From contig NZ_CP103057.1 in assembly GCF_025231525.1 (NCBI RefSeq), positions 1,195,001-1,259,000 on the forward strand: a stretch of DNA of 64,000 bases, read 5' to 3'. This DNA is from Sphingomonas endolithica (lineage in GTDB: Bacteria > Pseudomonadota > Alphaproteobacteria > Sphingomonadales > Sphingomonadaceae). Position 1 is the first letter of the stretch. The number at the start of each line of letters is the position of its first letter. A program made the translations under genes and the position numbers. This document shows, in pieces, positions 7,641 to 10,983 of the stretch. The notes below the pieces were generated by a model that saw only the letters and a program-made list of their open reading frames with translations, had not been told where the DNA came from and searched no databases.

Positions 7641-7961
7641 TTACTTCTCGCCATTGTCCTTGACGCCGACCGTCGGCACGTCGACCGTCTCGGTCTCCGT
7701 CTTGATCTTGGGCACTTCGACCTTGGTCTTGCTGGTGCCGACAACGACTTCCTTGGAATCCATATCGACCTTGGGCAGTTCGCCGCCCTTGACCGATACC
7801 TCGGGCATCGCGCCCTGCTTGACGTCTGCGCTCCAAAAGCCAGTGGCGAAGAGCAGGCCGACGATCACGATCGCGGCGACCAGCACGATTGCCAGCGTGG
7901 TACCGCCGCTACGGCGCTTCACGACGACGGTTTCGGTGGTATCGTTCCTGTAATCGGACAT
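7641..7961 (-). CDS. Small single-pass membrane protein of unknown function
   Basis: 106 aa. A short basic cytoplasmic N-terminus (VVVKRRSGG) is followed by one membrane helix (TTLAIVLVAAIVIVGLLFATG, about residues 21-41). The polar C-terminal tail is rich in Val, Lys, Thr and Asp with repetitive VxVP/VxVK spacing, as in VEVPKIKTETETVDVP. The pattern suggests a tail exposed in the periplasm. I do not recognise the family. It stands alone ahead of a hairpin. Confidence 0.65.
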   Translation of the reverse strand: MSDYRNDTTETVVVKRRSGGTTLAIVLVAAIVIVGLLFATGFWSADVKQGAMPEVSVKGGELPKVDMDSKEVVVGTSKTKVEVPKIKTETETVDVPTVGVKDNGEK

Positions 7962-8006: not shown

Positions 8007-8216
8007 TTATTGTTCCGTCAGTTCAGGCACCAAACAATCGTCGCTGCGGACGGCCCGGAACTGCCGCGGCTTGGTCAGCCCCATCATCTGCATGCGCGCA
8101 CGCGTCGCTTCCTGCGAGCGTTGCATCTGCGCTGCGATCATCGGCACGGTCTCTCCGGCAGCGACGCGTGTGCGCAATTCCTGCGCATCCTCATCGGTCC
8201 ACTTCTTGTTGGCCAT
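8007..8216 (-). CDS. Small helical, possibly DNA-binding protein
   Basis: 69 aa with a good GAGGAAGGG ribosome site before the ATG at 8216. It begins MANKKWTDEDAQELRTRVA and continues PMIAAQMQRSQEATRARM. This W-x-D/E-E-D-x-x-L start and the following helices resemble SANT/Myb-like or GcrA-like helix-turn-helix segments; that is a resemblance only. The C-terminal tail (RAVRSDDCLVPELTEQ) is acidic. Confidence 0.6.
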   Translation of the reverse strand: MANKKWTDEDAQELRTRVAAGETVPMIAAQMQRSQEATRARMQMMGLTKPRQFRAVRSDDCLVPELTEQ

Positions 8217-8332: not shown

Positions 8333-9343
8333 TCAGCCGGTTTGCGGCCCCGCGCCCCCGCCCCGCCACTTGGTCCACAAGTGCCGCGCCAGCATCGCCG
8401 GTGGCATGCGCAGCATGTGCGAGCGGATGTAGAATGCCTGGCGGAGCACCGGGCGCGTCCGTCGCCCCCAGCCGTCCCGCGCGGTCAGCCGGCGCAAGTA
8501 AAGCCGGTCGGCCCAGCTCAGCGCGCTACCCTCGCCATACAGCGCCGCCGCCAGGCGCAACGCGCGCGACGCTTCATGGGCCAGGCCATGCAGCTCGGCC
8601 CGCTGAACAAGCCCGGCCGTGCCGTGTTCGCTCACCAGGCAATGCACGTCCCACAGATTGCGCATGCCACCGGCGAGATCTCCATCGGCAAACAGGTGCG
8701 CCGCGGCATGAATCAGCATATCGTTGGGCGAGAGCGTGCGCAGCCCGGGCGAAAGTTCCACGCTGTCGCGCAGCAACGCCGTCGCATCCGGCGTAATCCG
8801 CGCCGTGAGCGGCAGGATGGTGTGGTGTACGTCGATCATCCGATCGCGGTCGCGGTGGATCAGCGGCGGCAGCTCGTGCATCCATTGCCGGTAATAGGCA
8901 TCGTCATACGGATCGGGCTTCACCCACTCCCACCCCGCTGCAAGCAGTGCCTGCTCGACCACATCGAGTGAATCGCGTGGCACCAGGATGTCGAGATCCC
9001 CAATCGACCGCCCCTCCCCTGCCAGCAACCCCGCCGCGACGAACGCAGTGCCCTTCAGCAGCACCGCCGGCACGCCAAGCGGGGCCAGCACGCGCCGCGC
9101 GGCCTCGGCCTCCCACAAGGCGAGCGTGCGCCCGTGATCGGCAGAGGCACGCGCATCGGCGAGGATCCGGACCACGGACGGCGGAAGGTCGAGGCCGTTC
9201 AAGCGAAAGGCCAGCGTGCCGATCAACTGCTCCGCACGCGCGATCGCCAGCAGATCGGTCCAGCCGGCGGCATCCAGCCCGGCAACGGCGCTGGGCGAGC
9301 GCAGCACGCGCGCGAGCAGCCACCCGTCGGCGGCCCACGCCAT
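8333..9343 (-). CDS. Nucleotidyltransferase family protein (NTP_transf_5-like)
   Basis: 336 aa. The middle carries a nucleotidyltransferase-like core, with VPAVLLKGTAFVAAG followed by GRSIGDLDILVPRDSLD; the D-x-D pair would bind metal and nucleotide. This matches the uncharacterised nucleotidyltransferase family that accompanies exopolysaccharide, exosortase and HprK-related clusters. It is the last gene of a four-gene minus-strand operon. The upstream kinase stop overlaps a GTG-ATG start pair (9346/9343). The substrate is unknown; transfer of a nucleotide to a sugar or protein partner is possible but unproven. Confidence 0.8.
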   Translation of the reverse strand: MAWAADGWLLARVLRSPSAVAGLDAAGWTDLLAIARAEQLIGTLAFRLNGLDLPPSVVRILADARASADHGRTLALWEAEAARRVLAPLGVPAVLLKGTAFVAAGLLAGEGRSIGDLDILVPRDSLDVVEQALLAAGWEWVKPDPYDDAYYRQWMHELPPLIHRDRDRMIDVHHTILPLTARITPDATALLRDSVELSPGLRTLSPNDMLIHAAAHLFADGDLAGGMRNLWDVHCLVSEHGTAGLVQRAELHGLAHEASRALRLAAALYGEGSALSWADRLYLRRLTARDGWGRRTRPVLRQAFYIRSHMLRMPPAMLARHLWTKWRGGGAGPQTG

Positions 9344-10203
9344 CACAGCGCCGCCCAGGCGGCATCCACCGCGGCGATCGCCTGATCTGTGTCGGGATAG
9401 TCGATCGCCTGCGCTGGAATCGCCTGGACCAGGCGAGTGAGCGCCCCGAAGCCACGCTCGCCCATCGCGACATAATTGGTCGATGCCTGGGTCAGTCGCA
9501 CGAATGCCTCGCTGACCGGCACGTCGCGGGCGGCGAGCGCATGGCCGAAGCTGGGAAATAGCAGCAGTGCAGGCGCGGCCGGGATCGCCATCGCCGCTAC
9601 GGCGGCGGCGTCGGGCACCATATGCCGGATGTCGCCCTTGGGCGTTCCTGCCAAGAGCGGCCCGAACCGTGCGCCGGTCACCGCGCGCTCGACGACGCCG
9701 ATCGCCTGGTTCTTCAGGCTGACCAGCCGCGGAAAGGCGTGGATCAGCCCGGTCTGCGGGTCGAGCAGCGCGAACTCGTCGCCCATCAGCCGCCAGCCAC
9801 GGTGCGACAGCAATGCCGCGAGCGTCGATTTGCCCGCGCCCGACACGCCGGTCATCAACAGCGCACGGCCATCACGCTCGACTGCCGAAGCATGCAGCAG
9901 CAGATAGCGGCGCTGCCCCAGCGCCATCTGCAGGTTCATGCCCATTTCCGCGGCCAGCAGCCCTTGCGCGAGCGGCAACGGGGCGGCGTCGGGCAGGATA
10001 TAGTCGCCGCCGATCATCACCGAAGGCCGTACCACCCGCCGCCACGGCCGACGCGCGAACAGGCGGACGGTGAAGTCGGGCACGCCGTCCTCCGGCTGCG
10101 GATAGCCCGCATATAGATCGGTCAATTGTTCGATCGGCGCGCGCCAGTCCGAGCCGACGCGGAAACCGACCGGGCCGATGCGCACGGTGAAGACATGCCT
10201 CAT
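9343..10203 (-). CDS. HprK-related kinase A
   Basis: 286 aa. The C-terminal half resembles HPr kinase/phosphorylase: LLHASAVERDGRALLMTG leads into the P-loop GVSGAGKST at residues 119-127, followed by GDEFALLD at about 141 and a PRLVSLKNQ segment. The N-terminal domain (1-100) is unlike HPr kinase. Established families of this type (HprK-related kinase A) occur with a PqqD-like protein and a nucleotidyltransferase, exactly the neighbours here, and are not linked to the PTS. The start overlaps the PqqD-like stop (ATGA). The phosphorylated target is unknown. Confidence 0.85.
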   Translation of the reverse strand: MRHVFTVRIGPVGFRVGSDWRAPIEQLTDLYAGYPQPEDGVPDFTVRLFARRPWRRVVRPSVMIGGDYILPDAAPLPLAQGLLAAEMGMNLQMALGQRRYLLLHASAVERDGRALLMTGVSGAGKSTLAALLSHRGWRLMGDEFALLDPQTGLIHAFPRLVSLKNQAIGVVERAVTGARFGPLLAGTPKGDIRHMVPDAAAVAAMAIPAAPALLLFPSFGHALAARDVPVSEAFVRLTQASTNYVAMGERGFGALTRLVQAIPAQAIDYPDTDQAIAAVDAAWAAL

Positions 10204-10472
10204 GCGCGCGCCTCGACCAGACCCGCTGCGACAAGCTCCGCGAGCCGCGCCGCCAACGCTGCCTCGGTCAGATCGTCGATGTCGAATTCGGCGGTCAATC
10301 GCTGGCCAAGTGCTGCGAGCGTCATCCCCGCCTCGCCCAGGATAGCGATGATCTCAGGCGCGGGCGCGGTCAGCAGATGCGTGATACCGGACGCCCGGTG
10401 ATAGACCAGCGTGAAATCGTCCAGCCAATCGATGCACAACGTTTCGACGCGGCACGCCCGGTACAGGGTCAC
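10200..10472 (-). CDS. PqqD-like protein of the HprK-related (HPr-rel-A) cluster
   Basis: 90 aa, GTG start. The sequence THLLTAPAPEIIAILGEAG, followed by two short helices ending LAARLAELVAAGLVEA, has the winged-helix/PqqD layout used by peptide chaperones (RRE) in RiPP systems. The preceding YHRASG element is typical of the PqqD-family member that travels with HprK-related kinase A. It sits 14 bp after the exported-protein gene and overlaps the kinase start by 4 bp, so the three are surely co-translated. A role presenting a peptide or protein to the kinase is inference. Confidence 0.8.
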   Translation of the reverse strand: MTLYRACRVETLCIDWLDDFTLVYHRASGITHLLTAPAPEIIAILGEAGMTLAALGQRLTAEFDIDDLTEAALAARLAELVAAGLVEARA

Positions 10473-10486
10473 GCGACGCCGTCGTT

Positions 10487-10888
10487 TCAGCCGCGGGGCA
10501 TCTGCAGCGACGCAAAGCAGGTGAAGCCGCTGGTGCCCGACTGCAGCTTGCGGATGTAATTGGTGTAGGCGCGGCTCGTCTCGTAATCGGTGCCGGGCAA
10601 CTGCCCGCCGGACAGTGCCTGCTTCACCTGCTCACCCTTGAACACCTTGCCGGTCGTCGGGAAGGAGCCGGCCGTGCCCGCCGGCACCACCGATCCGTCG
10701 GCAGCGATCGCCGATCCGGCGCGCCCGGCGTCGGGCACCGGGATTTCACAGGTCAGCACCGAGGCATTGGTCTGGGCAAGCGCAGGGCGGATCGAAATCA
10801 CCGATGCCGCGCCGACGGCACCGAGCATCAGCGCGCGGCGGCGAGTGGCGCCGTGATCGGCGGTATCGAGAGGATGTTCGTCGCGCAT
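10487..10888 (-). CDS. Small exported protein with twin-arginine-type signal
   Basis: 133 aa from the ATG at 10888. The N-terminus has TRRRALMLGAVGAASVISI followed by RPALAQ, a twin-arginine n-region, hydrophobic stretch and likely AxA cleavage site near residue 38. The mature part is about 95 aa, Gly/Ser/Thr-rich, with just two cysteines (C47 and C124) that could form one disulfide. No known domain recognised. It is the first gene of the PqqD/kinase/nucleotidyltransferase operon, so it is a natural candidate substrate or product. It is divergent from phoR across about 95 bp. Confidence 0.75.
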   Translation of the reverse strand: MRDEHPLDTADHGATRRRALMLGAVGAASVISIRPALAQTNASVLTCEIPVPDAGRAGSAIAADGSVVPAGTAGSFPTTGKVFKGEQVKQALSGGQLPGTDYETSRAYTNYIRKLQSGTSGFTCFASLQMPRG

Positions 10889-10983
10889 GGCCCCAGCCCT
10901 TTCCACCCTTAGCCCTTCCATATTCGCCAAACACTGGCAAGCGGCGCTATCCCGGTTAAGTACGATTGCGCTAAGGAAGCGGC

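Follow-up and report, generated by a model that had tools for sequence, protein, structure and literature searches.

We report here a cassette of four adjoining minus-strand genes in a 64,000-nucleotide stretch of Sphingomonas endolithica DNA (NZ_CP103057.1, positions 1,195,001 to 1,259,000, hereafter the window; the source genome is a single 4.09 Mb contig). The four genes are retained or lost together and, judging from their sequences, we give a probability of roughly 60% that they form a modification cassette of the linear-peptide type whose precursor is exported by the twin-arginine translocation (Tat) route. In order of transcription the genes encode an exported protein of 133 residues, a PqqD-like protein, an HprK-related kinase and a nucleotidyltransferase-fold enzyme. 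All four open reading frames (ORFs) lie where an earlier note on this DNA had placed them (8333..10888), with the spacing it had described: a 14 bp gap and then two 4-nucleotide overlaps (ATGA at 10203 and GTGA(TG) at 9346). An in-frame TTG at 10930 is an alternative start of the exported protein (147 residues, vs 133 from the ATG). The features of the cassette are as follows.

10487..10888, minus strand: Tat-type exported protein, 133 residues, proposed substrate or precursor (ORF co-inherited with the kinase and PqqD genes; alignment A2)
10775..10888, minus strand: twin-arginine signal peptide, residues 1-38 (TRRRALMLGAVGAASVISIRPALA), proposed leader bound by the RiPP recognition element (RRE; RiPP, ribosomally synthesized and post-translationally modified peptide); read by eye
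10748..10750, minus strand: codon of C47, first conserved Cys of the mature exported protein (invariant in the 14 rows of A2)
10505..10522, minus strand: C-terminal motif T123-C-F-A-S-L128 (C124 and S127 invariant in the 14 rows of A2)
10508..10510, minus strand: codon of S127, inside the C-terminal motif, proposed modified Ser
10200..10472, minus strand: PqqD_rel_X, stand-alone RRE-type peptide chaperone, 90 residues (TIGR04353)
9343..10203, minus strand: HprK-related kinase A, 286 residues (TIGR04352)
9823..9852, minus strand: kinase P-loop, T118-GVSGAGKS-T127 (from the sequence; aligns with the HprK P-loop)
8333..9346, minus strand: NTP_transf_5 nucleotidyltransferase-fold enzyme, 337 residues (PF14907)
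8990..8998, minus strand: D117-x-D119 acidic pair of the nucleotidyltransferase-like enzyme (each residue in 83 of 84 loci)

We examined co-inheritance within the window's genus. The kinase scored over the cut-off in 29 of 37 genomes, and the exported-protein and PqqD genes were found in exactly those 29 (Fisher p = 2.6e-8, kinship uncorrected). The fourth gene occurred in the same 29 (with an extra copy in four); besides these, G018 has a fragment of it and G028 a copy at an unrelated site. In the other eight genomes, two of them only 79-85% complete, neither the exported protein nor PqqD was matched and no intact kinase was present. At their home site the phosphatase gene that flanks the cassette in the window was located in seven. 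In six of them at most about 420 bases separate it from the PhoR-like gene, and nothing in that gap matched the cassette. The home site of G018 (G018:C1:1904129-1904703, L223) holds a decaying cassette, with the C-terminal half of the kinase and remnants of the fourth gene, and no match to the exported protein or PqqD in that space. Since the four-gene linkage, the co-occurrence in the genus and the home-site comparison agree, we conclude that genomes retain or lose the cassette as a whole and that the four-gene set is real. The exported-protein gene was not missing from most genomes that keep the kinase and PqqD pair, the outcome that the earlier note had singled out as speaking against its proposal.

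Among the best 80 of 582 kinase relatives in GTDB species genomes, nearly all labelled as sphingomonads, 78 loci have all four genes; one of the other two (L123) reaches a contig edge before the fourth gene, and the other (L135) is missing only the exported-protein gene beside the kinase, which is present elsewhere in the genome. We then drew on kinase searches of three overlapping sets (61 relatives, 41 over the cut-off; 289 genomes of the class, 8 over it; 398 genomes of the phylum, 61 over it). The resulting survey takes a single kinase locus from each genome and totals 103: of the 105 genomes over the cut-off it includes 102, to which L201 is added, just under the cut-off at 187.8 bits. 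The kinase-positive G056, G501 and G516 were left out as fragments at contig ends, and the weak kinase relatives L031, L038 and L039 and wide duplicates stand outside the survey. In 80 of the 103 loci (34/34 in the genus, 46/69 outside it) the upstream ORF, within 700 bases, encodes a Tat-type protein with a C-terminal motif, hereafter class 1. The search pattern was C-x-x-S-[FLIVYM] within 40 residues of the C-terminus; in 80/80 a T or S precedes the Cys and one of F, W, L, Y, I and V follows it, although both positions were free in the pattern. The full motif in these loci is [ST]-C-[FWLYIV]-x-S-[LFIVY], with a median of 5 residues after it. Six loci (L058, L059, L065, L171, L178, L190) have no such gene near the kinase and carry it elsewhere in the genome, each time with the motif, and with L135 included the motif is present in all seven genomes in which the exported-protein gene is unlinked from the kinase. 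Further class-1-like proteins in L201 (CWTSA) and L056 were missed by the model or lie on the opposite strand; overall, a class-1 protein is found in 88 of the 103 genomes.

The full motif occurred in 80 of 96 assigned substrates, compared to 0 of 321 other same-strand frames near the loci (loose form: 9/321); our first control, in which 59 of 375 non-Tat frames had the loose motif, was invalid, since those frames included 50 substrates missed by the generic rule. Substrates were assigned by a signal model trained on motif-bearing candidates, and we therefore repeated the choice of upstream ORFs with a generic twin-arginine rule blind to the motif. Outside the genus this rule made a pick in 40 of 69 loci, and 31 of the picks had the motif near the C-terminal end, whereas 2,000 shuffles of the same tails averaged 1.8 and never exceeded 7. 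Inside the genus, where the Arg in SIRPALA defeats it, it picked in only 2 of 34 loci (1 with motif). It also chose wrong frames in L004 and L188. When only the window's genus was used for training, the signal model reached 10 of the 69 outside loci (9 with motif) and was too narrow, so that the generic rule was used for the motif-blind count.

Next, we examined the exported protein itself. The twin-arginine signal that the earlier note had read in it is there by eye, with the twin Arg, an uncharged h-region and an A-x-A end, as well as one Arg between the h-region and A-L-A; its two cysteines are C47 and C124. Searches with the protein gave no Pfam match up to E = 1 and none over the cut-off in NCBIfam, and its predicted model (mean pLDDT 67, moderate; mostly below 50 in the first 40 residues) matched no PDB structure at E < 5. 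Among 25 class-1 representatives, whose signals were partly picked by the signal model, pairwise identity of the signal segment was 42%, vs 27% after shuffling of the h- and c-regions and realignment, and that of the mature part 22%, vs 15% shuffled; from family to family the mature proteins can scarcely be aligned. One Pro and one Thr in the hydrophobic stretch are invariant in alignment A4 (16 rows), the Pro being missing from the window's own branch. Signal peptides usually diverge faster than their cargo. Since the signal here is more conserved than the mature part, against that trend, something besides export probably reads it, and the PqqD-like protein is the obvious candidate.

Taken singly, the enzymes are ordinary members of known families, and the earlier note had placed all three correctly. 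The kinase scored 242.7 bits against TIGR04352 (curated cut-off 200), the second gene product 63.8 bits against TIGR04353, the HPr-rel-A system PqqD family chaperone (curated cut-off 35), and the fourth, a nucleotidyltransferase-like protein with a D-x-D pair, 160.4 bits against PF14907 (gathering cut-off 31.2). The predicted kinase model (pLDDT 93) has the fold of phosphoenolpyruvate carboxykinase (PEPCK) and HprK, the P-loop kinase fold that PEPCK and HPr kinase/phosphatase have in common; the His, P-loop Lys and first Asp of HprK align with the window kinase, whereas the second Asp is replaced by Glu (E143). Kinase residues H104, K125, D142 and E143 are each kept in 102 of the 103 loci, and K98/G99, D117/D119 and D172/H174 of the fourth enzyme are each kept in 82-84 of the 84 loci that have the gene. 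We count this retention of the catalytic residues of both enzymes in favor of a modification cassette. Among the PADLOC defence models the kinase gave one weak hit (mads_8, 17.3 bits, residues 91-153), and a role in a defence system was set aside.

The travelling together of the genes and the conservation of the motif come directly from the comparison, and we infer each biochemical step as follows. The exported protein would be made in the cytoplasm, where the PqqD-like protein, a stand-alone RRE, would bind its signal or leader, delaying export and presenting the precursor to the enzymes. HprK-related kinase A would then transfer phosphate from ATP to the conserved Ser of [ST]-C-x-x-S (S127), and the NTP_transf_5 enzyme would add a nucleotide or sugar onto that phosphate. 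The modified protein would leave via Tat, its leader cut after A-L-A by the ordinary signal peptidase. We are most confident of the substrate: the earlier note had proposed the exported protein as the thing acted upon, linked and unlinked co-inheritance and the conserved Ser motif near the C-terminus support this well, and it is very likely right. Binding of the signal region by PqqD is probable, and the Ser of the C-terminal motif is, by a somewhat smaller measure, the favored phosphosite; whether NTP_transf_5 acts on the phosphoserine we regard as an even bet.

The earlier note knew of no described function for this set. We likewise found no literature description of it, nor of an analogue with a Tat precursor, in the text searched, which covers subscription journals little, but close functional analogues do exist in paeninodin, pseudomycoidin and the LPP peptides. 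The LPP clusters of Bacillota (Popov et al., 2026, PMC13381572) hold a precursor, a stand-alone RRE, an HprK-like kinase and an NTP (nucleoside triphosphate) transferase, as the window does, and the LPP criterion, namely the latter three beside a small precursor, describes the window too. Both are without a macrolactam cyclase of their own, LppK phosphorylates Ser3 of the LPP precursor, and LPP genes are often in capsule loci, just as some of the present cassettes are in glycosyltransferase or XrtA loci. LPP systems differ in having an SpI-like leader peptidase, an MsbA-like exporter, a YxxPxVLxHQ leader and the modified Ser at core position 3, whereas the window cassette has a Tat-signal leader and its conserved Ser near the C-terminus. 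Neither such a peptidase nor such an exporter was among the nine scanned neighbours, the neighbours being the place in the genome where they were looked for. In the lasso peptides paeninodin and pseudomycoidin, an HprK-like kinase acts on the C-terminal Ser (PadeK), a PqqD-like B1 protein is present and a nucleotidyltransferase (PsmN) is required for hexoses on the phosphoserine (PMC9266682), all of which have parallels in the window. The precursor in the window is instead an exported protein of 133 residues, and neither a B2 leader peptidase nor a lasso macrolactam cyclase was among the nine neighbours; some other cassettes do have an asparagine-synthase-like amidotransferase downstream, which in the single case run against NCBIfam belongs to the XrtA family. 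Signal-peptide RiPPs, bufferins among them, are precursors with an export signal that are modified before export, as we propose here, but by way of Sec rather than Tat and with MNIO iron enzymes acting mostly on Cys in place of kinase chemistry; their authors discuss premature export of such Sec-exported RiPPs and call masking of the signal by a partner protein 'tempting' (PMC12452194, PMC12710340). Because no peptidase, exporter or cyclase stands among the scanned neighbours and the [YW]xxP motif is missing, we set the cassette apart: the system works like LPP and paeninodin tailoring, yet lies outside the LPP and lasso definitions tested.

Several observations weigh against the proposed modification cassette. 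A PqqD-like match was obtained (with our own model) in 92 of the 103 loci and the fourth protein in 84; the [YW]xxP RRE-binding motif is missing from the exported protein, with no Y or W in residues 1-38; and the LPP counterpart of the NTP transferase had no visible effect in the test host (PMC13381572). Eleven loci, assigned by eye, carry a second type of substrate (class 2) without the C-terminal motif, L034, L165 and L180 have Tat-type proteins of neither class, and L033 has no Tat-type protein near the kinase, the part of its genome that was searched. Neither the 80-locus count nor the signal-conservation figure is independent of the choice to train the signal model on motif-bearing candidates. 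When the 398 phylum genomes were scanned with the class-1 model A4, 39 of 40 matches fell among the 61 kinase-positive genomes, which speaks for the cassette, but 16 of those 39 had supplied rows of the model and four matches (G434, G457, G040, G508) reach little beyond the signal; the only match in a kinase-negative genome (G548) is weak and in the signal part. The class-2 model A3 gave 12 matches, of which the nine strong ones are its own rows, one weak match is kinase-positive and two weak, partial ones (G660, G499) are kinase-negative. Both scans scored the best 7-8 first-look candidates per genome, so that absence is not exhaustive.

The class-2 proteins bear on where the modification would fall. 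They have a Tat-type signal followed by a Cys/Ser-rich start (e.g., C-S-I-S-G-x-x-S; looser in L032, L040, L166, L169 and L179) and mostly then a TC...SPGYW-like stretch. On the kinase tree (the 34 genus loci thinned to 13; 82 rows, with L177 a 91-residue fragment; class labels partly by eye) classes 1 and 2 alone require two changes, implying that substrate type follows kinase type. An alternative in which modification falls on a Cys or another Ser or Thr, with C-x-x-S as a docking site or as the disulfide partner of the N-terminal Cys, would accommodate the class-2 substrates without a C-terminal motif, both cysteines being as strictly conserved as the motif Ser in A2 and the motif lying, at moderate confidence, within a predicted helix of a small domain. 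Yet the HprK-like peptide kinases in the literature examined target Ser, and in the majority of class-2 substrates a Cys-x-x-Ser, or else a Ser close by, follows the signal (by eye); we consider this alternative unlikely.

Still less probable is that the exported protein is a periplasmic partner (a sensor or effector) and that the kinase and PqqD act on another peptide. Co-inheritance alone does not prove an enzyme-substrate relation, and outside Sphingomonadales some cassettes sit among glycosyltransferases and XrtA/PEP-CTERM genes. On the other hand, 102 of the 103 loci in the survey yielded a small Tat-type protein, whether next to the kinase or at another genomic site, and a leader conserved to an unusual degree together with a conserved Ser motif close to the C-terminus is in keeping with a modified precursor. 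A kinase that is a regulator of the phosphotransferase system/HPr type with incidental neighbours could explain its weak match to HPr kinase/phosphatase (20.4 bits to TIGR00679) and the HprK chains among its fold matches; that score is, however, far under the family cut-off of 240, the best whole-length structural matches are PEP carboxykinases, and the kinase, PqqD and the exported protein are jointly present or absent, which leaves this explanation very improbable.

Turning to the surroundings, one flank of the cassette in the window consists of two small ORFs, a phosphoglycolate-phosphatase-like gene, glmU and glmS, and the other, divergent, of a PhoR-like gene and pst genes (PstS-like, PstC, PstA). 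The nine neighbours scanned lie at 3.5-16.2 kb, with matches at E up to 1e-40, those of the phosphatase, PhoR and PstS genes being under the curated cut-offs. The two small ORFs (8007-8216 and 7641-7961, both minus strand), between the cassette and the phosphatase gene, had no strong match; one shows a faint likeness to GcrA (E 0.06), and the other a single hydrophobic stretch. Upstream of the exported-protein gene lies one further feature.

10911..10932, minus strand: candidate promoter-like element (GTTTGGCGAATATGGAAGGGCT) 5' of the exported-protein gene (by-eye likeness across loci)

A similar stretch stands at a comparable place in many of the 34 loci displayed (by eye). In addition, a stretch resembling TTTACGATTGTGAAAGGGC (window 10889-10983) is repeated a few dozen bases 5' of the exported-protein gene in many sphingomonads and may be a promoter or operator.

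Elsewhere in the order, a homologue of the phosphatase gene stands beside the cassette in other families (L150-L155); L150, the only one of these that was scanned, reads glmS, glmU, phosphatase, cassette, PhoR-like, PstS-like. Cassettes L161 (PrsT, PEP-CTERM response regulator) and L160 (TIGR03108 amidotransferase) are near XrtA/PEP-CTERM genes, and L208 and L210 near glycosyltransferases. In four of eight loci inspected (L208, L209, L211, L214) a TPR (tetratricopeptide repeat)-sulfotransferase gene lies 3' of the kinase, followed in L208, L211 and L214 by the nucleotidyltransferase gene. These surroundings are no more than a hint of a role at the cell surface or in exopolysaccharide and of variable tailoring. 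A long gene is next downstream of the nucleotidyltransferase gene in L160, L162 (after a short ORF), L163, L208, L211 and L214; in L160 and L208, which were scanned, it encodes an asparagine-synthase-like amidotransferase (TIGR03108 in L160, with a match to the lasso cyclase model that is under the cut-off).

Individual genomes offered further observations. In Sphingomonas sp. AOB5 (L135, L205) the PqqD, kinase and nucleotidyltransferase genes lie beside an apparent aconitase gene (by eye), and the unlinked exported-protein gene seemingly still adjoins phoR (antisense reading by eye). Two such exported proteins per genome were seen in L003, where their genes are close together, and in G512, where one of the two is unlinked (G512:C66:1826-2272, L239). 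A record named 'Bacillus sp. 2B10' (L080) holds a sphingomonad cassette with 77% kinase identity, probably through mislabelling or contamination of the assembly.

HprK-related kinase A and its PqqD partner have had database names only, and no description of a substrate was found in the literature searched, in which subscription journals are little covered. Our comparison supplies a first likely target, with a predicted residue (S127), for an uncharacterized kinase family of many bacteria, in a group that includes many cultured strains. More tentatively, and at somewhat less than even odds, the cassettes may represent a widespread class in Pseudomonadota of Tat-exported phospho- or glycophosphoproteins made by RiPP logic, in which a PqqD-type RRE would double as a Tat-signal proofreading chaperone, HprK_rel_A would phosphorylate the Ser of a C-terminal C-x-x-S, and NTP_transf_5 (in some loci along with a TPR-sulfotransferase) would decorate a product for the surface or for exopolysaccharide assembly. 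Tat is a route meant for folded proteins. If true, the proposed mechanism would tie RiPP-type peptide modification to Tat export and would offer an answer to the question of how a signal-bearing precursor stays in until it is modified. As the kinase is over the cut-off in 61 of the 398 phylum genomes sampled, many genomes would gain an annotation.

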